Below are positions 47 through 16,073 of a stretch of 23,644 bases of DNA, in pieces. The notes beneath the pieces were generated by a model. That model saw only the letters and a list, made by a program, of their open reading frames with translations. It did not search any database and was not told the origin of the DNA. Source of the DNA: a virus; IMG/VR virus record IMGVR_UViG_3300025869_000103, positions 1 to 23,644 of that record; one strand, written 5' to 3'. A program made the position numbers and the translations under genes. The stretch's first letter is position 1; the number at the start of each line of letters is the position of its first letter.

Positions 47-754
47 TTAATCTATCTCTATATGTAGAAAAGACTCTAAGGCTCGTTCCTCGTGGTATAT
101 ACTGGGTGGGTTTAATGTTGTTGATGACATGTGACCGTCTATGTGAATGTCGAATGCTTGAGAACATCTAGCCTCCTGTCTCGTGTTGGAGTCTACGGAA
201 TGCACGATGAGTGGACTAAACAAATGCAAGTCACCTCTTATGTTTTCTACCCATCCCTTACCTTGATACCATGTACCGTATTCTCTATGGTCGTTATGAC
301 TAAGGAATATATTACCGCTAATCATGTGTTGGTTTACGATAGGAATGATGTGTTGTTGTGACTTATCTATTTCCCAATCGTGTTCCCCTATTTGATTTAA
401 CTCTAGACCCGCGTGAATGTGGGGTCTTATGCCTTCGCCTTTGTCCCATCGATTACACCAACTCTTAATAAACACATCCTTGCAGTCTCGTGTGTCTACG
501 AATGACATGATTCTTTCTATGAGATTGATACCCAGTTCGTCTTCGATAAGAGGTATCCAGTTATAGGTGGAATGTAGTGCAGTGAGACCAGTGTATCCAT
601 CGGAGTCTGCCCATACGATATTCTCGGGTGAGAATTCTTCGATAAGTTGTGTGTGATGTGTAGAAATAAGTTCTACAATGGAGTCACATTCGACTTCACT
701 GTAGAACTTTGGTATGACTATGTGATAGTCTTCGGATTGTCTTATAGAACCCAC
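47..754 (-). CDS. 2OG-Fe(II) oxygenase-like protein, PF13759-type
   Basis: This 235-aa protein is probably a 2-oxoglutarate/Fe(II)-dependent dioxygenase with a double-stranded beta-helix core. Visible in the sequence are an H-x-H pair at residues 112-114 (RPHIHAG), a strand with SGNIFLSHN near 146-154, a GDLHLFSP turn near 174-181, the distal histidine H185 (LIVHSV) and R196, which would bind the 2OG carboxylate. This H-x-H...H...R order is that of the PF13759 family (TIGR02466-like), common in marine T4-like phages. The start is GTG, because no ATG lies near the N-terminus. It overlaps the end of the upstream glycosyltransferase-like gene by 13 bp, so the two are probably translationally coupled. 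The substrate is unknown. The C-terminal 30 residues extend beyond the core. Confidence 0.72.
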   Translation of the reverse strand: MGSIRQSEDYHIVIPKFYSEVECDSIVELISTHHTQLIEEFSPENIVWADSDGYTGLTALHSTYNWIPLIEDELGINLIERIMSFVDTRDCKDVFIKSWCNRWDKGEGIRPHIHAGLELNQIGEHDWEIDKSQQHIIPIVNQHMISGNIFLSHNDHREYGTWYQGKGWVENIRGDLHLFSPLIVHSVDSNTRQEARCSQAFDIHIDGHMSSTTLNPPSIYHEERALESFLHIEID

Positions 755-1620
755 AGTTCAAGATACCTGTCGGATTTAGGGTCTTTCCCTTCTCCTTTTA
801 AATGTAGAAAGCTACATTGTTGACTGATATCTCTGTACTCGTGTTCAAAGGTAATGAATTGTGCTTGTTGGTCTCCACCAAGTCCTCTCCATTCTCCTTC
901 ATTCTCGAATGATGGTCGTACATTGGTTTCCCATTTCTGATTCATTTCCAAGTTTGCAAACTCATCACCAATAATGTATTGACCTACGATACCATGGTTA
1001 GTGTTTAACACCATACCTTTGTTCTCTGCAATTTGGTCTTCGATGTATTGCTGTACGTTTGCACCATACTTTTCTTGAATGCCTGCTTTGTCAGCGAGGA
1101 AATTGTCGATAATGTACTTACCATCACCTTGTACCCAGCCACAGAAATGTGGGAAGTATTGAGTATCCCCATCTTCCATCCAGTTTCTTTCTTGAAAGAA
1201 GAATGATGTATTATTCTCTTTGATAGCTGCAGTTTCTTCATCTGTGAAGGTGAAGTTGCATTCGTCTGTAGTACCTTTAGAAGGTAGACCTTCGTATATG
1301 ACGGATGTACACATTTGTCTTGCAACGACTCTTGCATTGACATAGGTACACTTAGATTCTTCTCTAAGTCCCTTCATATCTCCGTCCCATAGTAAGACTT
1401 GATACCATTCGTCATGAATGATTTCGGGGTCTTTCATTAATGGGATAACACGGATGCCTTCATCAAGACCTGTAGGGTCATCGGTATAGCAAGATAACCT
1501 TGCGATGGACATACCGTCATTTGTTAGACTTCTCTGTCTGTCTAACGATAACTTTAATCGATTTACATCTTCAGATGTAACTCCAAGACCATCGGTCTTA
1601 ATTGTAACCACTTCAAACAT
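742..1620 (-). CDS. Glycosyltransferase-like protein with a degenerate DxD
   Basis: This 292-aa protein starts like a phage GT-A-type nucleotide-sugar transferase family: VVTIK near 4-8, EDVNRL near 17-22, then CYTDDPTGLDEGI at 44-56 followed by VIPL. In that family a strand with the metal-binding motif L-D-L-D normally comes next. Here the matching strand reads TYVNARVVA (residues 91-99), so both acidic residues are replaced by N94 and R96. The rest (WVQGDGKY near 162, a poorly conserved C-terminal half) is not recognised. Translation starts at ATG with GGAG about 8 nt upstream. The gene follows a terminator and a CTAAATA promoter motif, so it opens a transcription unit shared with the 2OG oxygenase that overlaps its end. 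Family assignment rests on the N-terminal motif only, and activity is doubtful. Confidence 0.5.
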   Translation of the reverse strand: MFEVVTIKTDGLGVTSEDVNRLKLSLDRQRSLTNDGMSIARLSCYTDDPTGLDEGIRVIPLMKDPEIIHDEWYQVLLWDGDMKGLREESKCTYVNARVVARQMCTSVIYEGLPSKGTTDECNFTFTDEETAAIKENNTSFFFQERNWMEDGDTQYFPHFCGWVQGDGKYIIDNFLADKAGIQEKYGANVQQYIEDQIAENKGMVLNTNHGIVGQYIIGDEFANLEMNQKWETNVRPSFENEGEWRGLGGDQQAQFITFEHEYRDISQQCSFLHLKGEGKDPKSDRYLELWVL

Positions 1621-1660
1621 TTAACACTCCTATAAAAATAATATATTTGATTTCTGATTT

Positions 1661-1667
1661 TATTTAG
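1661..1667 (-). promoter_or_regulatory. CTAAATA late-type promoter motif
   Basis: CTAAATAAA on the minus strand lies about 40 nt before the ATG at 1620 and just after an intrinsic terminator. It resembles the T4 late -10 element TATAAATA. The implied start near 1655 gives a leader of about 34 nt that contains the GGAG ribosome site. The role is inferred from recurrence of the motif at unit heads in this window. Confidence 0.5.
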
Positions 1668-1670
1668 GGT

Positions 1671-1713
1671 ATAAAAAACCCTTCATACTTCTATTATAAG
1701 ATATATGAAGGGT
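1671..1713 (-). terminator. Intrinsic terminator after the 37-aa ORF
   Basis: A 10-bp perfect stem, ACCCTTCATA with TATGAAGGGT (arms at 1678-1687 and 1704-1713), is followed on the minus strand by six T residues. It lies 13 nt after the stop codon of the 37-aa ORF and ends the transcript carrying the outer-membrane protein gene. Confidence 0.85.
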
Positions 1714-1725
1714 CTCGTCAACTGG

Positions 1726-1839
1726 CTATTTAAACATTTCTTCTACAAGAACGTGTATGTCACCACTCTTCATCATATCGTTAAATTTGTCTGCTAGTGT
1801 CCTAAGATACGAGGCAGACAATGATGCGTAATATTGCAT
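1726..1839 (-). CDS. Small protein, 37 aa
   Basis: A short ORF begins ATG CAA TAT TAC with GGAG seven bases upstream (GGAGATAAAAATG) and ends directly before a strong intrinsic terminator. The product begins MQYYASLSASYLRTLADKF and ends LVEEMFK. It looks like one amphipathic helical segment with no signal peptide or membrane span. The good ribosome site and the terminator position argue that it is translated, and it fills most of the interval between the outer-membrane protein and glycosyltransferase-like genes. The function is not recognised. Confidence 0.55.
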   Translation of the reverse strand: MQYYASLSASYLRTLADKFNDMMKSGDIHVLVEEMFK

Positions 1840-1920
1840 TTTTATCTCCTATATTTGTCGTAACAATCTGATACTCGGACTTCGAACTTAATCTACTTAC
1901 TCTTGTATCGTACTTGTTAC

Positions 1921-1950
1921 ATAAGTGTGACATTTATGTGTCACACTTAT
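1921..1950. repeat. Perfect 12-bp inverted repeat between genes
   Basis: ATAAGTGTGACA and TGTCACACTTAT form a perfect 12-bp stem with a 6-nt loop, 20 bp after the stop of the outer-membrane protein gene. There is no T-run after the stem on either strand, so a classical terminator is not supported. It could be an operator, an RNA-processing hairpin or a 3'-end stabiliser. The remaining sequence from 1840 to 1969 holds nothing else I can assign. Confidence 0.6.
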
Positions 1951-1969
1951 ATATAGGTGAATCAACAAC

Positions 1970-2611
1970 TTAGAAGTTGTATAGTAATCCTACTGATATA
2001 CTATCTGCAACTTGGTCTTCGAACACATCTTGACCAATCATACCTGTTAAGGTAAAACTCTCATTCAAGTCATAACTCACATTGAGTTGACCGAATGTAT
2101 CTTCACTGTCATATAGACCACCAACCAATGTTACGTCCAATACTGGAATGAACCATAGGTCATATCCAATCTCGGCATAGTTATCATTCGTATCAATATC
2201 TTGATAGTATGATAAGGATAGGTTGCCAATATCTGCAGCTGCATATAACTCTTCAAAAGATTCCACTGACCCATCGTATGTATATCTGATATACCCAACG
2301 TTCAATGTTACCTTGTCGGTTATAGGTAGTAATAGACCACCATAGAAATCTGTCTCACTGGTTGCATCATCAAACTCAACGTCTGAGTTCCATGCACCAA
2401 CATATAGTCCAGTTCCCTCGTGAAGAACCAAACCACCGACTGACAATGCTGGTTGGTTTCCTTGTGAGACACCTCTCCATACATAGTCTGATTTATAACC
2501 TATCTCACCAGTGAAAGAAAATGATGGTGTTGATTCCACCCCTGCTCTTTCATCTGCTAAGACTCCAAATGACATTACTGTAAACAATAATGTTGCTAAT
2601 ATATTTTTCAT
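1970..2611 (-). CDS. Outer-membrane beta-barrel protein, TIGR02001/Gcw_chp-like
   Basis: This is a 213-aa secreted protein. It has a signal peptide (MKNILATLLFTVMSFGVLA, cleavage probably after A19) and then alternating beta strands. The signature stretches of the bacterial Gcw_chp family (TIGR02001/PF09694) are present: SDYVWRGVSQ at 41-50, HEGTGLYVGAWNSDV at 64-78, an acidic strand before FYGG near 89-92, and YIRYTYDG at 107-114. The chain ends in a terminal aromatic (LLYNF), typical of BAM-assembled outer-membrane barrels. The start is the ATG at 2611 with GGAG just upstream; a longer reading frame runs back into tRNA-Ala and is unlikely. It follows tRNA-Ala and stands outside the virion and replication modules. 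This is a host-type gene, probably acquired. A role in altering the infected cell surface is inference. Confidence 0.8.
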   Translation of the reverse strand: MKNILATLLFTVMSFGVLADERAGVESTPSFSFTGEIGYKSDYVWRGVSQGNQPALSVGGLVLHEGTGLYVGAWNSDVEFDDATSETDFYGGLLLPITDKVTLNVGYIRYTYDGSVESFEELYAAADIGNLSLSYYQDIDTNDNYAEIGYDLWFIPVLDVTLVGGLYDSEDTFGQLNVSYDLNESFTLTGMIGQDVFEDQVADSISVGLLYNF

Positions 2612-2624
2612 ATATTCTCCTTTT

Positions 2625-2652
2625 TTTATTATCATGATTTTATTATCATGAT
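2625..2652. repeat. 14-bp tandem repeat in the leader of the outer-membrane protein gene
   Basis: Two exact tandem copies of TTTATTATCATGAT lie between tRNA-Ala and the start of the outer-membrane protein gene. Each contains the 8-bp palindrome ATCATGAT, with 14 bp between equivalent positions. This could be a paired operator or replication slippage in AT-rich DNA. Confidence 0.6.
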
Positions 2653-2658
2653 TAGTAC

Positions 2659-2734
2659 TGGTGGAGCTAGAGGGAATCGAACCCACGACCTACTGATTGC
2701 AAACCAGTCGCTCTCCCAACTGAGCTATAGCCCC
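2659..2734 (-). tRNA. tRNA-Ala(UGC)
   Basis: The gene is 76 nt with a full cloverleaf. The acceptor is GGGGCTA/TAGCTCC, the D arm is GCTC...GAGC, the anticodon stem is ACTGG/TCAGT with loop TTTGCAA (anticodon TGC), and the T loop is TTCGATT. Discriminator A and CCA are encoded. There is one T.T mismatch in the T stem. It closely resembles bacterial tRNA-Ala and reads GCA-type codons. Confidence 0.93.
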
Positions 2735-2740
2735 AGTAAA

Positions 2741-2902
2741 CTATTCTTTAATTTGTTTTGTCTTTCTTGACTTATAGACTTTCTTTTTAGACTCGTCTAT
2801 GTTAGGTGTAGATTTATCGTCTGCAACAAAACGACCTTTCTCGTCTCTTGCTCTGACCCATTCAAATCCTAACCAGTCTGTGAATTTATCCCAAAATGCC
2901 AT
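2741..2902 (-). CDS. Small basic conserved phage protein, 53 aa
   Basis: This ORF starts at ATG with a good ribosome site (GGAGAAG, 7 nt spacing). It encodes a protein beginning MAFWDKFTDWLGFEW, then VRARDEKGRFVADDKSTPNI and a Lys-rich tail. The 'GRFVADDKSTPN' stretch resembles a motif I know from small hypothetical proteins of marine T4-like phages. An amphipathic, Trp-rich N-terminus could touch a membrane. It lies between tRNA-Ala and a 2OG oxygenase. Function is unknown. Confidence 0.7.
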   Translation of the reverse strand: MAFWDKFTDWLGFEWVRARDEKGRFVADDKSTPNIDESKKKVYKSRKTKQIKE

Positions 2903-2916
2903 AAATTACTTCTCCT

Positions 2917-3546
2917 TTACACCGTTTTATAGTGTACGTTACCTGCTACCGATATCCTTTCACCTTGTGGGTCATGGAATGGGTAGACAGAATGATTCAA
3001 CCACGATGGGAAGATAAGTATATCTCCCTTCTCGGGGTAATGTGACATGGATGTCCAATTCATAAAATTGTTCTCTCCATAATGTAAGTCTATATGACCA
3101 GCAAGTGGTCTAGACTCTTTCGTTGTGGCCCTATCAAATTGATTATTGATAGCGACATCTCGTTTGATGGTGTTCTTTGTGTAGAATACGAAACTAAACA
3201 TACCATCATGTGCATGAATAGGATTGTATTCAAATTCTTTCTGTAGATTAACCCAAAGGCCCTCTATTTGCAGCTGTTCACTGTAAACTTCCATACCTAT
3301 CTGTTGGGCCCATGTCACTACATGGTCTAGAATGTGACTCTTTGTATTCTCGGTTACTACATCTTCAATGGATACTTGTGTATCAACTCTACCAGCAAGT
3401 AAGTCTGCACCTATCTTGTGGTCTTTGTTGTATCTACGTGATTCTATATCTCGATTAACTTCATCGATGACATCCATATCCATCTTTCCAACCCAAACTG
3501 GTGGGCCGAATGGTGTGATGAGTTCACCTTCAGGGCTATTCTTCAT
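2917..3546 (-). CDS. 2OG-Fe(II) oxygenase-like protein, PF13759-type
   Basis: This 209-aa protein has the whole PF13759-type core. Residues 109-116 (PIHAHDGM) hold the H-x-H pair H111/H113, then SFVFYTKN, then GDILIFPSWLNHSVYPF at 174-190 with distal H185, and ERISVAGN with R197. Hence metal and 2OG ligands appear complete. The start is taken as the ATG at 3546, preceded by GAGG; longer frames run 39 nt further into the upstream gene. It overlaps that gene by 11 bp, which suggests coupled translation. It is one of five oxygenases between 2.9 and 8.0 kb. Substrate unknown. Confidence 0.8.
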   Translation of the reverse strand: MKNSPEGELITPFGPPVWVGKMDMDVIDEVNRDIESRRYNKDHKIGADLLAGRVDTQVSIEDVVTENTKSHILDHVVTWAQQIGMEVYSEQLQIEGLWVNLQKEFEYNPIHAHDGMFSFVFYTKNTIKRDVAINNQFDRATTKESRPLAGHIDLHYGENNFMNWTSMSHYPEKGDILIFPSWLNHSVYPFHDPQGERISVAGNVHYKTV

Positions 3547-3775
3547 CTGACCTCTTTTCAGTAAGGACTGCATGTGGCAATCCATTCTTTCTTCTTCTCA
3601 CGAACTCGTTTGCAATCTTCTGACGCAATTTACCTTTCCCTCGTTGTGTAAGTATCTTATTGTATTCTTCAATAAGCTCTTTCAGTGGAGTAGATTTCAT
3701 ATAATAATGTGTTACTGAAACTTTTCCTGTTCCACGTGCAACGGTTTTTTGGGTTGGTTTAAATTTTGTCGGCAT
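3536..3775 (-). CDS. Conserved small basic phage protein, 79 aa
   Basis: The protein begins MPTKFKPTQKTVARGT and is strongly basic. It has a central HYYMKSTPLKELIEEYNK helix and RQKIANEFVRRRK near residues 53-65. A similar 'MPTKFKPS...HYY.K.T...L...VRQK..NEL.RR' pattern occurs in small proteins of cyanophages, as I recall. The ATG at 3775 has GGAG upstream (GGAGCAAAATG); further upstream starts fall inside the preceding zinc-finger gene. It overlaps both neighbours by a few bases. It might bind nucleic acid, judged only from charge. Confidence 0.7.
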   Translation of the reverse strand: MPTKFKPTQKTVARGTGKVSVTHYYMKSTPLKELIEEYNKILTQRGKGKLRQKIANEFVRRRKNGLPHAVLTEKRSDEE

Positions 3776-3932
3776 TTTGCTCCTTGGTTCGGGGTTTATG
3801 TTTAACATGCCAGTCATGACTACAATATGCATCACAAAAAACATGCACTGGTTTTTGGTTGATTGGTGTGTGGTATTTGACTTGTGTCATATCTAGTTCT
3901 TTTTTACACTCACTACATTTAATCTTGTTCAT
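3759..3932 (-). CDS. Small zinc-ribbon-like protein, 57 aa
   Basis: This short protein has C6-x2-C9 (KCSECKK) and C33-x3-C37 (VFCDAYCSHDWH), a spacing that could hold one zinc ion, perhaps with histidines nearby. The ATG at 3932 is preferred over a GTG three codons upstream because GAAGGAAG lies about 9 nt before it. It overlaps the upstream prolyl-hydroxylase-like gene by 14 bp and the downstream basic protein by 17 bp. The function is not recognised. Confidence 0.65.
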   Translation of the reverse strand: MNKIKCSECKKELDMTQVKYHTPINQKPVHVFCDAYCSHDWHVKHKPRTKEQNADKI

Positions 3933-4563
3933 CGAAGTCACTTCCTTCTTCGTTATGTCGTTTAAACCATATTGCTAGAACGTATCTTTCACCTTGAAAG
4001 AGAGGTTCCACTCCATGCCACCTTTCAGTGGAATTGTTGAATGCAACCATGGTTCCTGTTCGTGGTTGTAAGATATGTCCTTCGACATTCAAACGTCCAC
4101 CTTGATAATTGTCATTCAACATAAAGATTGTTGTACCTGTATCATCTTGGTCTGCTTCATCTTTATGCCATTGGAACATTGTATCCGTTGGATATTTCAT
4201 TATCGTAGCATACGTTATTTCTCCAAACTCTGCAGTTTTAGGAAGATATGGCTCCACTAAGTCTAGAACTTCCTCGAATGGTGTAGTACCTTGTTCCAGT
4301 ACAGTCACATCGTGTCCAGTACGTGGATGTTCGTATCTCCATGATTTATCCATAACAGACAGTTCTTTGGCACATATCTGTCCATTATCCTCTTGGAAAA
4401 CTTCGGATATTACCATTCTATCCATTACATTTATAATAACATCACATGACTCTTGTGTCAATACGCTATCTGCAATCATTAGTAGATTGGATGCAGTCTC
4501 CTCATACTCATGTGAAGCATCTTTGACTACTTGTGTACTGACTACTAGTTTTCGTATCGGCAT
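3919..4563 (-). CDS. Prolyl-4-hydroxylase-like 2OG-Fe(II) oxygenase
   Basis: This 214-aa protein fits the P4Hc/PF13640 type. The facial triad reads H133-x-D135 (QWHKDEAD) and H183 (RWHGVEP). R193 (GERYVLAIWF) would bind 2OG. The beta-helix core is clear between them: TTIFMLNDNYQGGRLNV and RTGTMVAFNN. The first 110 residues are a helical N-terminal region with TQESCDVIINVMD near 36-48. Start and upstream stop overlap as TAATG, so it is coupled to the preceding oxygenase gene. P4H-family enzymes hydroxylate peptidyl proline or related residues; the target here is unknown. Catalytic residues look intact. Confidence 0.85.
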   Translation of the reverse strand: MPIRKLVVSTQVVKDASHEYEETASNLLMIADSVLTQESCDVIINVMDRMVISEVFQEDNGQICAKELSVMDKSWRYEHPRTGHDVTVLEQGTTPFEEVLDLVEPYLPKTAEFGEITYATIMKYPTDTMFQWHKDEADQDDTGTTIFMLNDNYQGGRLNVEGHILQPRTGTMVAFNNSTERWHGVEPLFQGERYVLAIWFKRHNEEGSDFDEQD

Positions 4564-5261
4564 TATCTGTCTCTATGATTTGGTACAGGGTGGAAGAATC
4601 TCACGTATGAGTATCTCCATTTGTCTTCACAATATTTGGTGTAATCATCTATCCATGCACCATGTAATTTGTTACCAGTGAAAATAACACATGTGTTGTA
4701 TTTGGCTGGTATGATGTAATCAATCTCAAACTCTTCTTCAACTGGATATAGAACACCCATATGTTCCATGTTGGTAATCCACTCACCTTTATATACTGCA
4801 GTTCCACCGCTCTCTTCTTTATCCATGTATACTAACATATTCAATGTGGACTTATCATCGGGTGTGATGAAATCACTGTCGATGTGTGGGTAGTGTTGCA
4901 TTCTAGTATCAAACTCTGTTATTGTTTGAAAACAATTAAACTCATGAATCTGTTTGTAGTCATAGTCTCCTGTCCACCAGTATTTTCTACATAGTTCTAG
5001 GATTCTATCCATTTCATTAATCCCGACTCTAGTAGGATGTCCTATCTTGTCTGTAATACGACAATCATTGTATACGGTACCATTGGGTGAATCTCTTTCT
5101 GTAGAGTATTTCCACATAGGGTACTGTCTACTTGAGATGTGGTCATATATGTCTTCGGGGTTCTCAAAGAAATCGTGTATTGTGAGAACACCATTCTCGA
5201 ATTCATAATCTAGTTTGGGGTTGATTGCATACAGCTCATCAAGTGCGTAAGTCTTTTTCAT
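4563..5261 (-). CDS. 2OG-Fe(II) oxygenase-like protein (DUF6445-like)
   Basis: This 232-aa protein shows H126-x-D128 (HYPHIDSD), a beta-helix strand LNMLVYMDKEESGGTAVY at 140-157, FTGNKLHGAWI with H200, and arginines R216 and R221 (KWRYSYVRFF) as candidate 2OG ligands. The pattern of H-x-D, 'GGTA.Y', 'F..N.LHG' and a final 'R.FF' resembles DUF6445. No Shine-Dalgarno is visible; the leader is AT-rich. It starts 8 nt after the upstream PF13759-type gene and ends overlapping the next start by one base. It is clearly different in sequence from its neighbours, so local tandem duplication is not evident. Confidence 0.75.
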   Translation of the reverse strand: MKKTYALDELYAINPKLDYEFENGVLTIHDFFENPEDIYDHISSRQYPMWKYSTERDSPNGTVYNDCRITDKIGHPTRVGINEMDRILELCRKYWWTGDYDYKQIHEFNCFQTITEFDTRMQHYPHIDSDFITPDDKSTLNMLVYMDKEESGGTAVYKGEWITNMEHMGVLYPVEEEFEIDYIIPAKYNTCVIFTGNKLHGAWIDDYTKYCEDKWRYSYVRFFHPVPNHRDR

Positions 5262-5269
5262 AATATTAT

Positions 5270-6025
5270 TTATTTGCCGTCAAAAAGGTGACGATATGAC
5301 ATATTGTCACCAGTAGTATTGCTGTTGAATTGTTCTCTTAGTTTAAGGTTGAATGATAGTGAATATCTCAGTTCTTTGCTTTCTGATTCCATAGACGGTG
5401 GAACAGCATGCATCAAATAAGACGGCCAAAGTAGGAAATCACCAGCCGTTGGGTAGAACATCATATCAGACTGAAATCCAGTACATCCAGTAAACTCCAT
5501 ATGGGGTTTATCATTGAACGTTCTCAAATCCTCAACTCCATTATGTACATGACATGCAGCCATGTTAGGATTCCAAAACTTGATTGGTCTGTCGGATGAA
5601 TTGATATACCATGTACCACTCATATGTGAATCTACGTGATTGTGTATTTCGTGTTGATGCTCTGCATCATATCTGTTGACCCATGCAAACAGATGTATAT
5701 CGTCTCTGCAGTATTGTCTAACATCTCTATCGAATTGTGTTCTTACGAACTCGATATAGGTATCTTTGATTGTGTTTGAGAAATCCTTGAACCATGGTAA
5801 GATATGAGTTTGAGTTCTTATGTCCTCATCAAAGTATGATGTGTAATTAGACAACTTGTCCTTGTTACTCTTTCCAGCAACATGGTCAATCAACTTGTCT
5901 ATATCTCTCTTCACCAAGCCTGGTGAGTAATCTAATTGACCCCTCAAGAATGGTGTCGCAAACATAGGTATCACCCTATGTCGTGCTGGTTGAAACTTCT
6001 GTTGGTCTTGTTTCGCTGGTTTCAT
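5270..6025 (-). CDS. 2OG-Fe(II) oxygenase-like protein, PF13759-type
   Basis: This 251-aa protein contains QHEIHNHVDSHMSGTWYIN at about 124-142, the diagnostic PF13759 stretch with H128 and H130. GDFLLWPSYLMHAVPP at 195-210 has the distal H206, and R220 is in ELRYSLSFNL. The N-terminal part includes IPMFATPFLRG near 19-29, the usual family opening. A Cys-containing insert (MAACHVHNGVEDL near 155-167) sits within the core. ATGA overlap with the upstream membrane protein implies coupled translation. The set of ligands looks complete and the substrate is unknown. Confidence 0.83.
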   Translation of the reverse strand: MKPAKQDQQKFQPARHRVIPMFATPFLRGQLDYSPGLVKRDIDKLIDHVAGKSNKDKLSNYTSYFDEDIRTQTHILPWFKDFSNTIKDTYIEFVRTQFDRDVRQYCRDDIHLFAWVNRYDAEHQHEIHNHVDSHMSGTWYINSSDRPIKFWNPNMAACHVHNGVEDLRTFNDKPHMEFTGCTGFQSDMMFYPTAGDFLLWPSYLMHAVPPSMESESKELRYSLSFNLKLREQFNSNTTGDNMSYRHLFDGK

Positions 6026-6267
6026 AGTTTAATCGCCAATAATAGTAAAATTGATATTAGTAATATGTTTGTCATGAAGATACCGATTGCAAGAATGGTA
6101 TGATACCAAATCCATCTTGTCTTGTACGCATTCTCAATTGATATGTCGTTGGGGTCAACATCATCTTCCATCATGTCGATTTTTTTAGGTTCTATCGACA
6201 CATCATACACGATTTCTTTATCTTCTTGCCAAGCCCAATCTACAAATTTGTCAAACCACTTAGTCAT
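6022..6267 (-). CDS. Small tail-anchored membrane protein, 81 aa
   Basis: The N-terminal 50 residues are soluble and acidic (WFDKFVDWAWQEDKEIVYDV, then a DDVDPND stretch). The last 30 residues form one strong hydrophobic span (ILAIGIFMTNILLISILLLL). The 'KFVDWAWQEDKE...RWIWYHTILA' pattern resembles a small conserved protein of marine T4-like phages. It overlaps the lipoprotein gene upstream and the oxygenase downstream. Being next to a candidate spanin pair, it could belong to the lysis set, but a single C-terminal span does not define a holin. Confidence 0.65.
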   Translation of the reverse strand: MTKWFDKFVDWAWQEDKEIVYDVSIEPKKIDMMEDDVDPNDISIENAYKTRWIWYHTILAIGIFMTNILLISILLLLAIKL

Positions 6268-6805
6268 CCGCCTTCTCTATTTTAACTGCAACCCCCTTCT
6301 CATTTCCTTTCGGGGTTTTGATAGTAACGTTTCTGTAGTATACAACTACTTCACCTAATTGCTTTATGTATCGTTTGAGTTCTTGCATGTTTGCACTCAT
6401 GACCTCATAGTCTCCTATGGTAGTCGCAACGAATACAACCTCACCACCATTCTGTTCTTTCATTTCATCTAAGAAATAATCAAGGTGTGTGTAACCAACT
6501 GGCCACTCGGGATTGTCTCTGTCCTCAAGGTTACATGTCTTAGGACGTTTAAGTTGTTCTACACCCTCTTCATCGAACTTCTTAGGGTCAAATGATAGGG
6601 TCTTTCTGCATAGGTTATCTTTCTTTGCCTCTGATACAACAAACCATGTAGGTGCAGTCATTTCAATAGGTCTTGGTAATGTAGGTTGAATGATATCTAT
6701 TTCAATAGGTGCAGATACAACCTCAATCTGCTTGGTTCCTAATAAACTACAACCACTAATCGTCGCGATTAGACTCGTCAAGATTATAAATTTCTTGTGT
6801 ATCAT
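6260..6805 (-). CDS. Lipoprotein, candidate outer-membrane spanin
   Basis: The 181-aa product begins with a lipoprotein signal sequence: basic MIHKK, a hydrophobic core, and lipobox ISGC with C19 as the lipidated residue and S20 after it, which favours the outer membrane. A Pro-rich stretch follows (IIQPTLPRPIEM near 39-50). The C-terminal half carries ELKRYIKQLGEVVVYYRN, a motif familiar from T4-like cyanophage lipoproteins. Its first 50 bp overlap, out of frame, the 3' end of the upstream N-anchored coiled-coil gene. Overlapping genes for an inner-membrane coiled-coil and a lipoprotein are typical of Rz/Rz1 spanins. At 181 aa it is long for an o-spanin, so the assignment is tentative. Confidence 0.6.
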   Translation of the reverse strand: MIHKKFIILTSLIATISGCSLLGTKQIEVVSAPIEIDIIQPTLPRPIEMTAPTWFVVSEAKKDNLCRKTLSFDPKKFDEEGVEQLKRPKTCNLEDRDNPEWPVGYTHLDYFLDEMKEQNGGEVVFVATTIGDYEVMSANMQELKRYIKQLGEVVVYYRNVTIKTPKGNEKGVAVKIEKADD

Positions 6806-7139
6806 CTTCTATTCCCTCAAATACTCTATCAGTTCCACGATTGAACTTACCTGTCATTATACCAGGCTTTGCAACTGCAAGAGCGTTTAAATTATGTCTT
6901 TGGAATATCTGTAGATACTCCGCCTTTTCTGCTTCAATCGATGCATTTTTACGACTCATGTTTTGTAATGCTTTACCCTGTTTCTCAAACTGTTCTTTCA
7001 TTACTTCCATAGCACGTTGTTGTTCTTCTACTGCAGCTTCTAACTTAATGTTATTTTGGGTAAGTGTTTGATTCTCATTATACAAAAAGAAACAAAACAA
7101 TCCCACTGCTACTAGAAGACCCATAGTTAATTGATTCAT
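6756..7139 (-). CDS. N-anchored coiled-coil protein, candidate inner-membrane spanin
   Basis: This 127-aa protein has one N-terminal membrane span (MGLLVAVGLFCFFLY at 6-20) and then a heptad-rich segment of about 50 residues (roughly 25-75) rich in Gln and Glu. The C-terminal part has FQRHNLNALAVAKPGIM, resembling the 'KHDL..LA..KPGL' region of Rz-like proteins in marine phages, and an acidic end. This is the layout expected of an i-spanin with a periplasmic coiled coil. The next gene, a lipoprotein, starts within its last 50 bp in another frame. The start overlaps the upstream stop (TAATG). Confidence 0.6.
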   Translation of the reverse strand: MNQLTMGLLVAVGLFCFFLYNENQTLTQNNIKLEAAVEEQQRAMEVMKEQFEKQGKALQNMSRKNASIEAEKAEYLQIFQRHNLNALAVAKPGIMTGKFNRGTDRVFEGIEDDTQEIYNLDESNRDD

Positions 7140-7375
7140 TAATCTATCTCCTCTATTTTTACTTCAAGTCCTTTGACCGAACGTATCTCTACTACGTTCT
7201 TGGTTTCATAGTCTTTGAATTTTAAATGTTTCGGTCTATTAATCATGACATTTCTTGATACATATTCCGACTTGTACATATTACCACCTTCCGATTGACG
7301 GTAGATTGTAATCTTGTATTCTGCTTTGAATAGGGATTTCAGCCATTCCCAAATGACCCATACCCCTCTACGCAT
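7139..7375 (-). CDS. Conserved small phage protein, 78 aa
   Basis: The protein begins MRRGVWVIWEWLKSLF, an amphipathic Trp-rich helix, and continues as a beta-rich domain (YKITIYRQ, YVSRNVMINRPKHLKFKDYE, VVEIRSV, LEVKIEE). The ATG at 7375 is chosen because GGAG stands 6 nt upstream; an in-frame ATG at 7399 lies inside the end of the preceding oxygenase gene and has poorer spacing. There is no clear signal peptide. It ends overlapping the candidate i-spanin start by one base. The function is not recognised. Confidence 0.65.
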   Translation of the reverse strand: MRRGVWVIWEWLKSLFKAEYKITIYRQSEGGNMYKSEYVSRNVMINRPKHLKFKDYETKNVVEIRSVKGLEVKIEEID

Positions 7376-7391
7376 GAATACTCCTATCTTT

Positions 7392-8024
7392 TTAAGCATA
7401 GTCTATCCATCCTGTTATTATTTTCTTCTCTCCCTTCAATGGTGGGTTGCCTCTATGCATATGCGTAAAACCAGCAGGCCACAATACAATGTCACCTCTC
7501 TTTGGTTTGATACGTAATGATTGATATAGGAATTCTAACTCACCCCCCTCTTCCACGTCATTTAGGAAGATTGCCCATGCCAGTAGGGATTTACTGCTTG
7601 ATGGACAATTACAATGTTCACAATGCCAGACATGATATCCTTGTTGTGGTAGTGTCTTTTGAATCTTTGCACCACTGACCATAAGACCCCTGTAGTTGTC
7701 TCGGACTGGGTACTTGTCAAACCAACTATCAATTACCCCACCTTCCTCTTCGAAGATGTCTAGTAATCGATTCATCTGACCACCGAAATATGATTCGGGT
7801 ACTGAAGTGATGCTGATTGCATCGTCTGATTTGGATGTAATGATTTGTGTATCGTAGGACTTTCTTGGTAGTGTTAAACCACGGTCTTCACACTTCTGAT
7901 ATATGTCTAACACATAGTCAATAAACTCATCCGTGGCAAAACCTTGGTATAACAGAACATGCTCACCCAAGTCTTCTATAGTTCGTTCTTGTTCTTGTTG
8001 TTGTCGATGTATTTCTCGTCTCAT
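7392..8024 (-). CDS. P4H-type 2OG-Fe(II) oxygenase with H-x-E
   Basis: This 210-aa protein matches phage P4Hc-type oxygenases. YHVWHCEHCN at 130-139 holds H134 and E136 (glutamate where most relatives have aspartate). SLLAWAIFLNDVEEGGELEF follows, then RGDIVLWPAGFTHMHRGNPP at 176-195 with H188 or H190 as distal ligand. KKIITGW places lysines 200-201 where arginine usually binds 2OG. H-x-E is tolerated in this superfamily, so it may be active. It is the first gene after a terminator and a CTAAATA motif. No Shine-Dalgarno precedes the ATG; TATATAAAA stands just upstream. Confidence 0.8.
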   Translation of the reverse strand: MRREIHRQQQEQERTIEDLGEHVLLYQGFATDEFIDYVLDIYQKCEDRGLTLPRKSYDTQIITSKSDDAISITSVPESYFGGQMNRLLDIFEEEGGVIDSWFDKYPVRDNYRGLMVSGAKIQKTLPQQGYHVWHCEHCNCPSSSKSLLAWAIFLNDVEEGGELEFLYQSLRIKPKRGDIVLWPAGFTHMHRGNPPLKGEKKIITGWIDYA

Positions 8025-8037
8025 AATTTTTATATAC

Positions 8038-8063: not shown

Positions 8064-8065
8064 CT

Positions 8066-8072: not shown

Positions 8073-8088
8073 TGTCACTGTAAAACGG

Positions 8089-8165
8089 TGGCACCCCCGA
8101 GAGGACTTGAACCTCTAACCTACAGCTTAGAAGGCTGTTGCTCTATCCAGTTGAGCTACAAGGGC
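8089..8165 (-). tRNA. tRNA-Arg(UCU)
   Basis: The gene is 77 nt. The acceptor is GCCCTTG/CGGGGGT with G-T wobbles, and the D arm is GCTC...GAGC. Anticodon stem ACAGC/GCTGT carries loop CTTCTAA (anticodon TCT); T stem AGAGG/CCTCT; discriminator G with CCA encoded. It reads AGA/AGG, and AGA is common in this phage's coding sequence. It stands directly after the HAD gene. Confidence 0.93.
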
Positions 8166-8166
8166 A

Positions 8167-8670: not shown

Positions 8671-8676
8671 ACGTAT

Positions 8677-8706
8677 AGTATAACCTAAAACAGGGGCCAT
8701 TGTCAA
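8677..8706 (-). promoter_or_regulatory. sigma70-like promoter for the HAD gene
   Basis: TTGACA (8706-8701), an 18-bp spacer and TATACT (8682-8677) stand on the minus strand. A start 7 nt after the -10 box falls on 8670, the A of the HAD gene's ATG, which implies a leaderless mRNA. Confidence 0.72.
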
Positions 8707-8718
8707 GGCATTTCGGGC

Positions 8719-9162: not shown

Positions 9163-9163
9163 A

Positions 9164-9193
9164 ATTATATCAAAATTGCTAGGTCATTGTCAA
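9164..9193 (-). promoter_or_regulatory. sigma70-like promoter for the metallopeptidase gene
   Basis: TTGACA (9193-9188), an 18-bp spacer and TATAAT (9169-9164) stand on the minus strand, with TGA before the -10 box giving an extended -10. Both hexamers are perfect. The -35 surroundings (GCCTTGACAATG) match those of the HAD promoter at 8706. Predicted start near 9157, past the first ATG. Confidence 0.8.
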
Positions 9194-9197
9194 GGCC

Positions 9198-9347
9198 TTA
9201 TTCGTCTTCTTCTAACTCCTCTTGCATATCCTCGTCAATCTCTGCACCACAGAAGGGACAATGGTCTATTCCATATGGGTGTGCATCCATCTCATGAATG
9301 ACTAAACATTCAGATTTACAATCCGAACAATGTATCCTAATCTTCAA
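9198..9347 (-). CDS. Small zinc-ribbon protein, 49 aa (TTG start)
   Basis: The ORF begins at TTG with GGAG 7 nt upstream (GGAGAAAAAATTG) and overlaps the end of the preceding gene by 11 bp. The product, starting MKIRIHCSDCKSEC, has C7-x2-C10 plus C14, then HCPFCGAE with C30-x2-C33, and a very acidic tail (EELEEDE). Two CxxC pairs spaced by about 20 residues are a classic rubredoxin-like or zinc-ribbon knuckle set. It has no ATG start. It may be a nucleic-acid- or protein-binding accessory factor; no function is assigned. Confidence 0.65.
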   Translation of the reverse strand: MKIRIHCSDCKSECLVIHEMDAHPYGIDHCPFCGAEIDEDMQEELEEDE

Positions 9348-9582
9348 TTTTTTCTCCTACTATTTCATTAAAAAAGTTGTCATTTGACTTGGTTTTCCCA
9401 TCAATAACACCATAAGGCAGTGTTCTACCCTCGGGTATGTCATTATTGAAGAAATCCTCTCCACATGTATATACTCTGACTTCGACTAAGTCCTTATCGA
9501 CTGTACGTGCAATATGCTCTAATCTCATATCATCAGCCGTTTGTTGATGTGGTCTTCGTAAGTATACGTGAACAGAATTCAT
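9337..9582 (-). CDS. Thioredoxin-fold-like protein without CxxC
   Basis: This 81-aa protein is next to, and coupled with, glutaredoxin (TAATG overlap). Its order of elements suggests a short thioredoxin-like fold: strand VHVYLRR, a helix from about 15 to 28, strand VEVRVYTC, then RTLPYGVIDGK with a proline in the usual cis-Pro position, and a last helix NDNFFNEIVG. It has only one cysteine (C40) and no CxxC, so it would not be an ordinary oxidoreductase. The fold is my inference from pattern alone. Confidence 0.6.
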   Translation of the reverse strand: MNSVHVYLRRPHQQTADDMRLEHIARTVDKDLVEVRVYTCGEDFFNNDIPEGRTLPYGVIDGKTKSNDNFFNEIVGEKIED

Positions 9583-9803
9583 TAGTCTTTTACAAACTCT
9601 GCAAGTTGGTCATATCCACCAATAGCATTTCCATCCACTCTGATTTGTGGAAATGTTCGTGCAGTTGGAAATTCCTCAAAGAGTTCTTCTCTAGTGAAAT
9701 CAGTATCCAACTGTTTATAAGTGTATTCTAGTCCTTTCTGTTCACATAAAGCTTTTGCTTTATCACAGAATGGACATTGTGTTTTTCCAAATATTTCTAT
9801 CAT
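9582..9803 (-). CDS. grx: Glutaredoxin
   Basis: This 73-aa protein is a standard small glutaredoxin. It has the active site C10-P-F-C13, ARTFPQIRVDG with the cis-proline, and IGGYDQL for glutathione contact. It is expected to reduce the C-terminal cysteine pair of the phage ribonucleotide reductase encoded three to five genes upstream, as T4 NrdC does for T4 reductase. It follows the PP-loop gene with 1 nt between them and has no promoter of its own that I can see. Confidence 0.9.
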   Translation of the reverse strand: MIEIFGKTQCPFCDKAKALCEQKGLEYTYKQLDTDFTREELFEEFPTARTFPQIRVDGNAIGGYDQLAEFVKD

Positions 9804-9804
9804 A

Positions 9805-10416
9805 TTAAAATCCCGTTATTCTTGTTAAATGTTTAAATTCCACACACTTAGAACATTCCCCACATTGATTTGGGTAACCCAAAGCGCATGAATTGACTAG
9901 TGTTCTGATTTCTGACGGTATTGAATTCCACTGGTTTAACTTAGTCTGACCACCTAATGGTGGGTAAAGTCTGTAGTTGTGGTTCTTATTCATCAATCTC
10001 GCATAGAACTCAAACACCATTTGAAATTCCCATGCACGTGGTACCCATGGCCAATCAGAATGATGCTTGTGGTCATCAGCATAATTTATCATTCCACTGT
10101 TGACACCCCAATAGTATTCCTCTATATGTGGGAACTGAGTCAACGCACTTAAACATGCGACTGACCAGTGTCGTGCAGAATGAAAGTATTCTTCTGACCT
10201 TTCTTCATGGTCATATTTAGGATGCTTATGAGTAATCAAATCAACATCCAGTATATCACATATTTGTGTAATATTACTATGTAGTTGATTTGCTGTCGTG
10301 ATAGGATTGTCCCATAGTGAATGCAGGGCAATAGGTTTCTTACCTTTCTCTACACACCAGTTCAATAATGCAGTGGATTCAACTCCACCACTAAACATAA
10401 CAACACAATCGTGCAT
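9805..10416 (-). CDS. PP-loop ATPase with QueC-type zinc site
   Basis: This 203-aa protein starts with the N-type ATP pyrophosphatase loop SGGVEST at 9-15. The C-terminus has C177, C185, C188 and C191 (CALGYPNQCGECSKC), i.e. C-x7-C-x2-C-x2-C, which resembles the zinc site of QueC, the 7-cyano-7-deazaguanine (preQ0) synthase. The middle differs from cellular QueC (HWSVACLSALTQF, WPWVPRAWEFQM). No queD, queE, folE or DNA-insertion transglycosylase is in this window. It could make preQ0 from host precursors, or amidate or adenylate another substrate. Its ATG overlaps the mazG stop. Confidence 0.7.
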   Translation of the reverse strand: MHDCVVMFSGGVESTALLNWCVEKGKKPIALHSLWDNPITTANQLHSNITQICDILDVDLITHKHPKYDHEERSEEYFHSARHWSVACLSALTQFPHIEEYYWGVNSGMINYADDHKHHSDWPWVPRAWEFQMVFEFYARLMNKNHNYRLYPPLGGQTKLNQWNSIPSEIRTLVNSCALGYPNQCGECSKCVEFKHLTRITGF

Positions 10417-10724
10417 TACTCTTCCTTAATAAAAATCCCATCGACCATACGTCCCTTACGGTCTTTGATGTCATGATATGCAACATTTAGACAATGTTGT
10501 AGACCTAGTCCATTTCTAGCTGCAATGTTAATTAATACGACAATGATGTCACCAATATCATCGGCTACATCTTTTTCTTTACAGACATTGTCCGATAGTT
10601 CACCCACCTCTTGGATAAGTTTACATACTTGGTCTTTATCTGTTGCACCTTCAATAAGGTTTCTGTCGTAGTGCCATTTTTCAATGCGTTCAATTACTGA
10701 TAGTAAATCTATGTCGGTAGTCAT
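10416..10724 (-). CDS. mazG: MazG-like nucleotide pyrophosphohydrolase
   Basis: This 102-aa, all-helical protein has the MazG metal motif QEVGEL (E39, E42) and ADDIGDIIVVL (D55, D56, D59) with the usual spacing. Phage MazG proteins hydrolyse (d)NTPs to monophosphates. In marine T4-like phages the gene regularly sits near nrd genes and is thought to help redirect host nucleotides. It is coupled to nrdB upstream and to the QueC-like gene downstream by TAATG overlaps, so it belongs to the same operon. Confidence 0.88.
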   Translation of the reverse strand: MTTDIDLLSVIERIEKWHYDRNLIEGATDKDQVCKLIQEVGELSDNVCKEKDVADDIGDIIVVLINIAARNGLGLQHCLNVAYHDIKDRKGRMVDGIFIKEE

Positions 10725-11821
10725 TATAACTCAAAATCCTCAAATGTAGAATCATCTACGTCCTGTTTGATGCCACCAATAAGATAGGATTCAATCTCCG
10801 TCTCTTGTGGGGCGTTTTGCAATCCTCTACTATTGAACCAATGATTAGTCCATGGTAGTGGGTTGTTCGTTGATGAGATATCGAACAGTGGGTTGAGTCC
10901 CAATGCACGTAATCTCTTGTTTGCTGTGTATTCTACGTACTGACCAAGCAGTGCAGTAGATAGTCCAATCATAGAACCGTCCTTAAATAAGAAGTCTGCC
11001 CATTCTTTCTCTTGGTCTACTGCATCACGGTACATTGCATATACCTCATCCTCAGTCTCTTCCATAATCTTCAACATATCTTTATCGTTCTCTTGGTTCT
11101 TATATGCTTTCAGAATGTGTTGTGTGATTGCTAGATGTTGTGCTTCATCCCTTGCAATAAGAGATATAATCTTTGCACTTCCTTCCATCTGTTTTAACTC
11201 TCCGAATGCAAATGAACATGCAAAGGATACGAAGAATCTAATTCCCTCTAAGATGTTAACTGATACTAGTGCAAGGTATAATGCTTTCTTAAGCTCATAT
11301 TCATCTACTTTAAGACCTAGTAATTTACGTCTTCCTAGTTCAATAAACTTGTCGTATTTTTCTGTTACCTGTTCTGCTCTAGCTACGATTGCTGGTTCAT
11401 CTAGTATTGTGTCAAATATCTGACTAGGGTCACTATATACATTTTTTATAATATGAGTGTAACTTCGTGAATGAATAGTCTCCATGAAGTCCCATGTAAT
11501 AATACAAGACTCAAGTTCAGGCAAGCTCACAAACGGTAAAAATGCTATGGATGGAGCTCGTCCTTGAACTGAGTCGAGTAAAGTTTGATACCTCAAGTTA
11601 GAGGTAAAGATGTGTTTTTGTGCATCAGATAGATTCTGATAATCACTTCTATCTTTCTGTAAGGATACCTCTTCGGGTCTCCAAAAGAAGCTCAATTGTG
11701 TCTGTGTTAGTTTGTCAAATATTGGATATTTGAATGTGTCAAATCTTTGGGTGTTTAACTCTTCCCCGAAAAACATAGATTCTTTTGTGAAGTCTACGTT
11801 CTTTTTATTAAATACTGTCAT
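10724..11821 (-). CDS. nrdB: Ribonucleotide reductase class Ia, beta subunit
   Basis: This 365-aa subunit would carry the diiron-tyrosyl radical cofactor. Ligands visible are D83 (TLLDSVQGRAP), E114 and H117 with the radical Y121 (METIHSRSYTHII), E192 (LEGIRFFVSF), and E226 and H229 (ARDEAQHL). The C-terminus ends in an acidic tail (DDSTFEDFEL), the usual docking peptide for the alpha subunit. The ATG at 11821 is preferred to the GTG at 11836; GGAAG lies about 9 nt before the ATG. It overlaps the preceding oxygenase gene by 14 bp. Length and motifs indicate a full, active subunit. Confidence 0.96.
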   Translation of the reverse strand: MTVFNKKNVDFTKESMFFGEELNTQRFDTFKYPIFDKLTQTQLSFFWRPEEVSLQKDRSDYQNLSDAQKHIFTSNLRYQTLLDSVQGRAPSIAFLPFVSLPELESCIITWDFMETIHSRSYTHIIKNVYSDPSQIFDTILDEPAIVARAEQVTEKYDKFIELGRRKLLGLKVDEYELKKALYLALVSVNILEGIRFFVSFACSFAFGELKQMEGSAKIISLIARDEAQHLAITQHILKAYKNQENDKDMLKIMEETEDEVYAMYRDAVDQEKEWADFLFKDGSMIGLSTALLGQYVEYTANKRLRALGLNPLFDISSTNNPLPWTNHWFNSRGLQNAPQETEIESYLIGGIKQDVDDSTFEDFEL

Positions 11822-12761
11822 TTCTTTTTCTTCCACGTGTGTCTAGTTCAAAATCATCATAATTGTTAGTAAATGCACTTTTTTCATCTATATGATTAAA
11901 GTATACATCTGAGAACTCACTGAACCATTTCTTTGTTTCTTTGACATGCTCCTCATTGTTCTCATCTGCATATCTATTTGGTCTACCATCAAAGTCTAGT
12001 GCTAAATGTTCAGGGCAACCTGTATGCATTGCATTTATTTGGTTTAACTTACTGTCCTCATTCCAAAAATGTAGGAACATGTGATAGGAGTAATCACCCA
12101 CTAGGTAATCTCTCCAGTGTATAACATTAGGCCCTTGGTATAGTAAAACGTCTCCAGGCTCTAGTGTTATTGGAATTCCCTTCCTTGCTCTATGTGGTAA
12201 TCCTTGAGACATTTCAAACACCTCATCCATACTTGGAGAATCAACATAGTTACCATCATTCTGTACCCAAATCTTCCATGGTGCATTGTCATCTGTTTGG
12301 TAATCTAAACAAATTGTTGCACTTATTTCACATGATGGTCTATCAGTATGAGCTCTTAGATATGCACCCCTCTCATACTTTCTAGAATATGAGTATGTTT
12401 CTCTTAGACCCATGTCAATAACATTGTTCAGCTTTTCCTTTAGCCATCTATGTAGGGAAACTGCCATCGGAGTACAATAGTTTGCACGTGATTTACCTAG
12501 TGAATCTTTTGGTGAGTTTTGGGTAATCTCCGTTTCTCTTTTGAAGATTGCATCATCCCACTCTTTGTTATGCTCAATAGTTTTCCATGCATCTAGTGAC
12601 ATGTTGATGATATCTTTGGGAATGAAATCTCTTAGAACTACGAACCTGTCCTTCATTAAAGACCACGTCTCGGGTGTAGTTCTACCAGTTAGAAGTTTAC
12701 CTTCTTGTTCTAAGTCCTTTATACAATATTCTACAGTCTTTTTCTCAAATGGCACAGGCAT
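11808..12761 (-). CDS. 2OG-Fe(II) oxygenase-like protein between nrdA and nrdB
   Basis: This 317-aa protein has H138-x-D140 (LRAHTDRPSCE), a beta-helix strand ISATICLDY, GDVLLYQGPNVIHWRD at 203-218 with H215, and DYSYHMFLHFW. There is no clear arginine at the usual 2OG position (SYHMFLHF), though R217 is two residues after the distal histidine. The N-terminal 110 residues and a C-terminal tail of about 80 residues flank the core. The ATG at 12761 lies inside the end of nrdA (17-bp overlap) with GAGG 9 nt before it. The end overlaps nrdB. Co-translation with both subunits is therefore likely. Its target is unknown. Confidence 0.78.
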   Translation of the reverse strand: MPVPFEKKTVEYCIKDLEQEGKLLTGRTTPETWSLMKDRFVVLRDFIPKDIINMSLDAWKTIEHNKEWDDAIFKRETEITQNSPKDSLGKSRANYCTPMAVSLHRWLKEKLNNVIDMGLRETYSYSRKYERGAYLRAHTDRPSCEISATICLDYQTDDNAPWKIWVQNDGNYVDSPSMDEVFEMSQGLPHRARKGIPITLEPGDVLLYQGPNVIHWRDYLVGDYSYHMFLHFWNEDSKLNQINAMHTGCPEHLALDFDGRPNRYADENNEEHVKETKKWFSEFSDVYFNHIDEKSAFTNNYDDFELDTRGRKRNDSI

Positions 12762-16067: not shown

Positions 16068-16073
16068 ACATTC

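Follow-up and report, generated by a model that had tools for sequence, protein, structure and literature searches.

Introduction

What do seven oxygenase genes gathered around the ribonucleotide reductase (RNR) operon of one phage act on? The question is raised by the 23,644-base virus record IMGVR_UViG_3300025869_000103 of IMG/VR (this whole stretch is referred to as the window), in which an earlier note had pointed out seven genes for divergent 2-oxoglutarate (2OG)-Fe(II) oxygenases, here named ox1–ox7. The window is a piece of a marine T4-like phage and is near-identical to part of a 145,922-base IMG/VR contig (G001, the 146-kb contig), from which it differs at 39 of 23,644 positions. We put at about an even chance the reading that the seven oxygenases would each hydroxylate a different target, most likely protein side chains, in early or middle infection, from genes placed around the RNR operon. 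Two results add firmly to the known oxygenase expansions: the fixed arrangement nrdA-ox7-nrdB, and the relabelling of the phrog_2954 family, to which ox7 belongs and which carries the name ferrochelatase.

Families and Folds of the Seven Oxygenases

All seven open reading frames (ORFs) listed in the earlier note are present, and all lie on the minus strand (Table 1). Pfam was searched with hidden Markov models at E ≤1, and the cut-offs were 27 bits for PF13759, 27 bits for PF13640, 24 bits for PF20043 (DUF6445), and 34.9 bits for Tet_JBP (PF12851). The matches of ox2 and ox5 to PF13759, of ox3 and ox6 to PF13640, and of ox4 to DUF6445 (35 bits) exceeded the cut-offs, whereas that of ox1 to PF13759 remained below it (22.6 bits). 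No Pfam match at E ≤1, PF00762 included, was obtained for ox7, and none of the seven reached the Tet_JBP cut-off, the best being ox3 with 13.4 bits. In the PHROGs database, ox1, ox2, and ox5 matched phrog_81 (2OG-Fe(II) oxygenase) and ox6 matched phrog_61, while ox3 matched phrog_2297 (DNA endonuclease) and then phrog_61, ox4 matched phrog_1644 (minor coat protein), and ox7 matched phrog_2954 (ferrochelatase). The placement of ox1 in the oxygenase superfamily is based on its PHROG match and the sub-cut-off Pfam match.

Profile comparison with hhalign related ox1, ox2, and ox5 to one another (99.9–100%) and ox3 to ox6 (91.5%), and gave at most 21% for ox4 or ox7 with any other member. The set therefore comprises four sequence types (PF13759-type, PF13640, DUF6445, and the ox7 family), where at least three had been claimed. 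The seven genes are not simple tandem copies, as had also been held; yet the profile relationship of ox1, ox2, and ox5 indicates that part of the set arose by an old expansion.

The double-stranded beta-helix is supported for ox2, ox3, ox5, and ox6 by Pfam matches over the cut-off and for ox7 and ox4 by models and fold comparison. The AlphaFold model of ox7 (window sequence plus 15 relatives) had a predicted local distance difference test score (pLDDT) of 86.2; for ox4 (16 relatives) the best model reached 78.7 and the other four 40–54. The name minor coat protein given to ox4 is a PHROGs label only, and the fold of its model is that of an oxygenase. In Foldseek, the Pseudomonas putida prolyl hydroxylase, which has also been solved with EF-Tu, and PHD2 led the matches of ox7 (E approximately 5e-9), and SptF led those of ox4 (1.5e-7). 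VIA-align gave HalA (Z 15.4, root mean square deviation 3.6, 204 residues aligned), BesD (15.1), and PHD2 2g1m (14.6) for ox7, and OGFOD1 (Z 12.3) and the mimivirus lysyl hydroxylase L230 (12.0–12.1) for ox4, which also matched LH3. By sequence, ox6 matched solved prolyl 4-hydroxylases at 8e-6; in the PDB no match was found for ox7 at E ≤1 with a single sequence or a profile, and none for ox4. These fold comparisons speak for the families in the match tables only. The fold of the ox7 and ox4 models and the layout of their motifs are like those of prolyl 4-hydroxylases, EGLN/PHD2, LH3, and L230, but identity in the structural alignments is only approximately 7–20%, and ox7 has no basic residue at the 2OG-binding place usual in these enzymes.

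Active-Site Residues

According to the earlier note, each protein has a paired His motif and a distal His, and most have a basic residue for 2OG. The distal His was found in all seven, whereas the pair is HxH in ox1, ox2, and ox5 only. The predicted metal-ligand motif is HxH...H in these three, a form which we take to be typical of PF13759 at large, and HxD...H in ox3, ox4, and ox7 or HxE...H in ox6. The basic residue is present in ox1–ox6, and ox7 has none at the usual place.

We counted a ligand-like residue when it was conserved in at least 97% of the aligned sequences. Conserved residues were H112/H114/H185/R196 in ox1 (n = 15 distinct sequences), H111/H113/H185/R197 in ox2 (n = 6), H126/D128/H200/R216 in ox4 (n = 27), H128/H130/H206/R220 in ox5 (n = 10), H134/E136/H188/K200 in ox6 (n = 26, and 9 of 9 in a separate alignment), and H138/D140/H215 in ox7 (n = 32). 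R141 and R217 of ox7, invariant in a nine-sequence alignment, are candidate binders of the 2OG carboxylate. In regards to ox3, R193 is the basic residue that follows the distal His, and among 25 sequences none of the residue types H, D, E, R, and K reached 97% at any site, the ligands being lost in some relatives. In the ox3 of three contigs (L040, positions 10572-11297; L041; and L044), WSKE replaces WHKD and a tyrosine replaces the distal His in a frame that is open; the ox3 of this clade is possibly a pseudoenzyme.

Selection and Gene Order

The ratio of nonsynonymous to synonymous substitution rates (dN/dS) of the seven genes was 0.05–0.28 in pairwise comparisons with three relatives, figures that are rough because dS was near saturation in most comparisons and saturated in 2 of 21. 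These values, well below 1, indicate purifying selection on all seven. The lowest were those of ox4 (0.05–0.09), which resemble those of nrdA and nrdB (0.05–0.10).

We examined synteny in 49 IMG/VR contigs that had been found with ox7 or ox4. The order nrdA-ox7-nrdB was present in all 45 assessable contigs, 19 of which had been retrieved via ox4 and not ox7. In 40 the order was strict, and in five the interval contained one additional oxygenase-type gene, either ox6-like before ox7 (two contigs) or ox1-like after it (three). The genes ox5, ox4, and ox3 were consecutive in 36 of the 36 contigs with readable ox4 flanks, a PF13759 gene before ox4 that scored best as ox2 being counted as ox5. In the three records checked outside the clade (AG-345-E15, S-CAM9, and ACG-2014f), nrdA and nrdB are adjacent and have no ox7 between them.

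In the window ox7 overlaps both nrdA and nrdB, and at seven loci the gaps ranged from -122 to +156 bases. The overlaps suggest that ox7 is probably co-translated with the two RNR genes and active at the same time as RNR. The arrangement was not found described in the literature on RNR-linked phage oxygenases that was covered, with most subscription papers lying outside that coverage. We attach a low probability to ox7 being a dedicated partner of RNR. It would then hydroxylate one of the RNR subunits, a regulator of RNR from the host, or the nucleotides produced, and so tune the supply of deoxynucleoside triphosphates (dNTPs) to oxygen, iron, and 2OG.

The Ferrochelatase Label of the ox7 Family

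The database label on phrog_2954 and phrog_3531, which has been used in two papers, would make ox7 and its relatives true ferrochelatases serving phage heme synthesis. We regard this as highly improbable. The labelled genes of HTVC008M, Mosig, and 023Pt matched phrog_2954 at 1e-50 or better and gave no Pfam match at E ≤1. At E ≤1, PF00762 had no match in any of 10 phage records, although a labelled gene is present in six of them, whereas 10 of 14 control genomes matched it, eight of them over the cut-off. In an alignment with ox7, nine sequences shared invariant HxDR, C144, W162, GD, HWR, and FxH, with HxD...H in 9 of 9, and the ox7 model has the 2OG-oxygenase fold. Furthermore, in the 362-aa protein of ACG-2014f that is called "ferrochelatase", an ox7-like half is joined to a half matching PF13640 (63.2 bits, cut-off 27), and the latter also matches PiuC by sequence (9e-5). 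These results indicate that the phrog_2954/ox7 family is almost certainly not a heme enzyme. The fusion gene is located at NC_047714.1 147201-148289 (L092:3974-5062), approximately 2.2 kb downstream of nrdB.

In two papers, phrog2954, taken as ferrochelatase, is enriched in seasonal viruses (PMC11561400), and phages encoding a "ferrochelatase" always had an adjacent 2OG oxygenase gene (PMC9599517). Both observations fit an oxygenase-fold phrog_2954. No correction of the label was evident in the literature covered, from which most subscription papers were absent. As in the window, the ox7-family gene of pelagiphages (HTVC023P-type, PMC9599517; HTVC008M; Mosig) stands beside other oxygenase genes; in HTVC008M and Mosig, unlike the window, it does not lie between nrdA and nrdB. 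These pelagiphage neighbours were published as a ferrochelatase with an oxygenase and are read here as oxygenase-fold throughout.

Five PHROGs families look oxygenase-fold from loci L090, L086, L088, and L087 and from the labels of ox3, ox4, and ox7. The case is strong for phrog_2954 and phrog_3531 (ferrochelatase) and partial for phrog_274 (DNA endonuclease V), phrog_2297, and phrog_1644.

Promoters and Timing

A late-type promoter motif, TATAAATA, was found before 12 genes in G001 (1.3 expected) and at 12 and 18 sites in two relative contigs, G002 and G003 (1.3 and 1.5 expected, respectively). The genes behind it include some taken for structural by eye. No copy is present in the ox1–ox7 span, the nearest being at window position 16,778, and strong sigma-70-like sites lie within the span (Table 1); one of these, at 8677..8706, precedes the nucleotidase-like gene if that gene starts at the downstream ATG. 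Together, these two features indirectly favour early or middle expression. In the pelagiphage HTVC022P nrdAB is expressed in the middle stage, according to PMC12753301. The promoter context weakly suggests that the cluster is expressed early or in the middle phase, a timing that favours hydroxylation of proteins in takeover or replication over modification of the virion.

The motif TATAAATA ends 4–6 bases ahead of the start codon in six of nine genes (G001 starts 131265, 127568, 109010, 48924, 26892, and 19214), so that the transcripts would be almost leaderless.

Targets of the Oxygenases

In the mechanism that we propose, each enzyme would be loaded with Fe(II), and at least ox1–ox6 also with 2OG, and each would hydroxylate its own target, the likeliest being protein side chains (Pro, Lys, Asn, or Arg) of the host or the phage. 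This would take place in the early or middle phase, during nucleotide making and host takeover, with ox7 co-translated with nrdA and nrdB and working when RNR works. The family matches, the models resembling prolyl and lysyl hydroxylases, the dN/dS values, the fixed gene order, and the promoters are consistent with this proposal. The suggestion of the earlier note that the set has different targets agrees with the several families and with dN/dS well below 1, but the roles proposed for the enzymes are inseparable by sequence.

Several observations weigh against hydroxylation of distinct protein targets in early or middle infection. The folds of 2OG oxygenases also act on small molecules and nucleic acids, and the top VIA-align rows of ox7 are enzymes of free amino acids and an epimerase. 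At the usual 2OG-binding place ox7 has Arg or Lys in none of 16 sequences, the motif there being YSYHxFxHF in 16 of 16. One clade retains ox3 without the Fe-ligand sites, which would suit a non-catalytic role. With respect to timing, the looser motif NATAAATA is also enriched before genes (27 against 3.3 expected in G001), and a copy of it, AATAAATA, precedes ox4 and, like the strong late-type sites, is separated from the start codon by 5 bases. The sigma-70-like sites in window positions 1-16500 are not above shuffled sequences in number (53 against 60), so that single sites are weak evidence.

One or more of the seven, chiefly ox7, may instead have DNA, RNA, or dNTPs as substrates and, with the RNR operon, supply a pathway for modified bases. 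We consider such nucleic-acid or nucleotide oxidation unlikely. The constant position of ox7 between nrdA and nrdB points toward it, as do a DNA methyltransferase gene adjoining the ox7 homologue of Syn30, a weak AlkB-type match of the ox7-like half of the fused homologue (PF13532, 19.2 bits, cut-off 31.2), and AlkB 3bi3 at rank 47 in the Foldseek list of ox7. In the opposite direction, the Tet_JBP cut-off was not reached by any of the seven, and their best folds are oxygenases of proteins, amino acids, and small molecules.

The same phage has a TET/JBP gene of its own. At G001:73403-75654 (L063:16403-18651), a protein matching Tet_JBP with 50 bits is encoded beside a C5-cytosine methyltransferase (169 bits), and a 12/12 sigma-70-like site stands in front. 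A TET/JBP protein with a C5-methyltransferase is a known cytosine hypermodification system of phages, and the G001 pair probably has this function. The pair can be counted in favour of nucleic-acid oxidation in this phage, but it lies outside the window, approximately 28 kb from ox7, and its oxygenase is not among ox1–ox7; TET/JBP exceeded the cut-off in two of seven relative contigs, several of which are fragments. DNA oxidation in the window phage is more likely to belong to this separate gene than to ox1–ox7.

It is improbable, in our estimate, that the enzymes drain 2OG or modify metabolites and so change the nitrogen and energy metabolism of the host. An effect of this kind has been proposed for cyanophages in PMC9602691, and ox7 aligns with lysine enzymes of the BesD/HalA type. 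For draining 2OG, however, one enzyme would be enough, and seven divergent, separately conserved active sites would be unneeded; no biosynthetic partner genes were recognised in the window by eye or in Pfam, PHROGs, and NCBIfam searches.

Comparison with Known Oxygenase Sets

The earlier note had called the set dense. The arithmetic holds, with five of the genes spanning 5.1 kb and all seven spanning 12.7 kb, but such density is not rare among the relatives compared. We counted PF13640 and PF13759 matches at E ≤0.001 in each whole record and the most within 23.6 kb. The counts (whole/most) were 11/5, 6/3, and 8/5 for G001, G002, and G003, and 16/5 for HTVC008M, 10/5 for Mosig, 13/6 for S-CAM9, 13/7 for ACG-2014g, 12/8 for Syn30, 8/4 for ACG-2014f, 3/2 for AG-345-E15, and 2/2 for 023Pt; the last eight records are matches to ox7, ox4, or nrdA and not a random sample. 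The window phage has five in 23.6 kb by the two Pfam models and seven with ox4 and ox7 added; ACG-2014f, 023Pt, and AG-345-E15 are sparser, the latter two records being short. According to PMC9602691, S-SCSM1 has 24 2OG-Fe(II) oxygenase genes in 228,827 bp, and the functions of oxygenases in viruses are said not to have been specifically investigated until then. With eight genes in 23.6 kb in Syn30, seven in ACG-2014g, and 24 in S-SCSM1, density was rejected as a surprise, and the cluster, ordinary for such phages, adds one more example to a kind already known.

The oxygenase genes of G001, 13 in total with ox4, ox7, and the TET/JBP gene included, are clumped: compared with random gene slots, six of the 13 fall within 7.5 kb (P 0.0008) and seven within 12.5 kb (P 0.0013), values that are only a guide because the window sizes were picked after looking. 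The marine T4-like sets of S-SCSM1, Syn30, ACG-2014g, and HTVC008M consist, as here, of many divergent PF13640 and PF13759 genes, several in tandem. Unlike them, the window cluster includes DUF6445 and the ox7 family, and it surrounds the RNR operon, whereas the clusters checked in S-SCSM1, HTVC008M, and Mosig are found near genes for the tail or neck.

The latter position raises the possibility that the oxygenases hydroxylate tail or capsid proteins, to which we give only a small chance. HTVC008M, Mosig, and S-SCSM1 have tandem oxygenase genes beside tail-fibre or neck genes (in S-SCSM1, four consecutive ones at 210,680-213,294 precede the genes for tail fibres), the G001 oxygenase genes at 116719 and 118332 are close to a neck gene judged probable by eye, and there is a possible late promoter before ox4 in the window phage. 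The window cluster itself has genes of replication and nucleotide metabolism as neighbours and lacks TATAAATA late promoters, and this promoter context speaks weakly against virion modification, one of the roles put forward in the earlier note, as the main one. A collagen-like run of at least six Gly-X-Y was absent in the 146-kb and 151-kb contigs; the third contig has one glycine-rich match, in an ORF that lies opposite a 2233-aa ORF on the other strand. Collagen-like substrates were accordingly rejected, no run of six Gly-X-Y being present in two of the three contigs. Late-promoter control of ox4 was likewise rejected: ATAAATA stands before ox4 here, but of 20 distinct stretches upstream of ox4 only one has AATAAATA.

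Neighbouring Genes

Table 1. Oxygenase genes, neighbouring genes, and putative promoters of the window.
Feature	Position	Strand	Evidence
ox1, 235 aa, PF13759-type, HxH...H...R	47..754	-	PF13759 22.6 bits; phrog_81 5.9e-8
ox2, 209 aa, PF13759, HxH...H...R	2917..3546	-	PF13759 50.2 bits; phrog_81 3.2e-31
ox3, 214 aa, PF13640 (prolyl 4-hydroxylase-like), HxD...H...R	3919..4563	-	PF13640 53.8 bits; alignment
ox4, 232 aa, DUF6445, predicted 2OG-oxygenase fold	4563..5261	-	PF20043 35 bits; model
ox5, 251 aa, PF13759, HxH...H...R	5270..6025	-	PF13759 59.2 bits; solved relatives 3bvc and 2rg4
ox6, 210 aa, PF13640 (prolyl 4-hydroxylase-like), HxE...H...K	7392..8024	-	PF13640 44.0 bits; phrog_61 7e-42
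ox7, 317 aa, predicted double-stranded beta-helix oxygenase fold, HxDRxSC...HWR	11808..12761	-	phrog_2954 6.4e-37; model
nrdB, class Ia RNR small subunit	10724..11836	-	By eye; position beside nrdA as in annotated phages
nrdA, class Ia RNR large subunit	12745..15033	-	Megablast to annotated marine-phage NrdA genes
Conserved 292-aa protein without assigned family	742..1620	-	ORF; dN/dS; synteny
Four small overlapping genes (81, 181, 127, and 86 aa)	6022..7399	-	ORFs; placed before ox5; syntenic
Sigma-70-like promoter, TTGACG-17-TATAAT, before the 742-1620 gene and ox1	1693..1721	-	Consensus match only
Sigma-70-like promoter, 12/12, TG before -10, directly before the SprT-like gene	9164..9193	-	Consensus match only
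Sigma-70-like promoter, 11/12, before the nucleotidase-like gene, tRNA-Arg, and ox6	8677..8706	-	Consensus match only

The window also encodes primase-like, PP-loop ATPase, glutaredoxin-like, SprT-like, and nucleotidase-like proteins and three tRNAs; gene names for which no search is stated were assigned by eye. Among phage records, the DNA match with the best coverage falls in nrdA, with approximately 71–72% identity to Marine virus AG-345-E15 and Synechococcus phages. No psbA-type match was found in seven relative contigs (four of them below 100 kb) or two pelagiphages, and S-CAM9 has one; the host is probably not cyanobacterial.

The 742-1620 gene lies upstream of ox1, which overlaps it. 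Of 18 contigs tested, at least 9 have it beside ox1, and its dN/dS is 0.07–0.09. Its product matched nothing over the cut-off in Pfam and nothing in PHROGs or NCBIfam, and is possibly a partner or a substrate. Two of the four small genes are lipoprotein-like and coiled-coil, spanin-like by eye only; the two searched had no Pfam match over the cut-off. An outer-membrane-like Gcw_chp protein (PF09694, 59.3 bits) with a signal peptide by eye is encoded at 1970-2686 on the minus strand, its longest reading overlapping tRNA-Ala at the start, and no relatives were found in the genome contigs. A lone QueC-like PP-loop ATPase gene (PF06508, 24.2 bits, cut-off 22) is located at 9805-10416 on the same strand, and is near RNR in many relatives but not all.

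Implications

Many marine phages have expanded sets of oxygenases. Published statements that treat ferrochelatase as an auxiliary metabolic gene, whether seasonal (PMC11561400) or as an oxygenase partner (PMC9599517), would need re-reading if phrog_2954 and phrog_3531 are oxygenases, and the labels DNA endonuclease V (phrog_274), DNA endonuclease (phrog_2297), and minor coat protein (phrog_1644) deserve rechecking. A clade in which an oxygenase-fold gene is consistently co-encoded with RNR is, for one family, a strong hint from the genome that can be clearly tested. If ox7 does prove to be a partner of RNR, oxygen sensing by hydroxylation would be built into a phage nucleotide operon.

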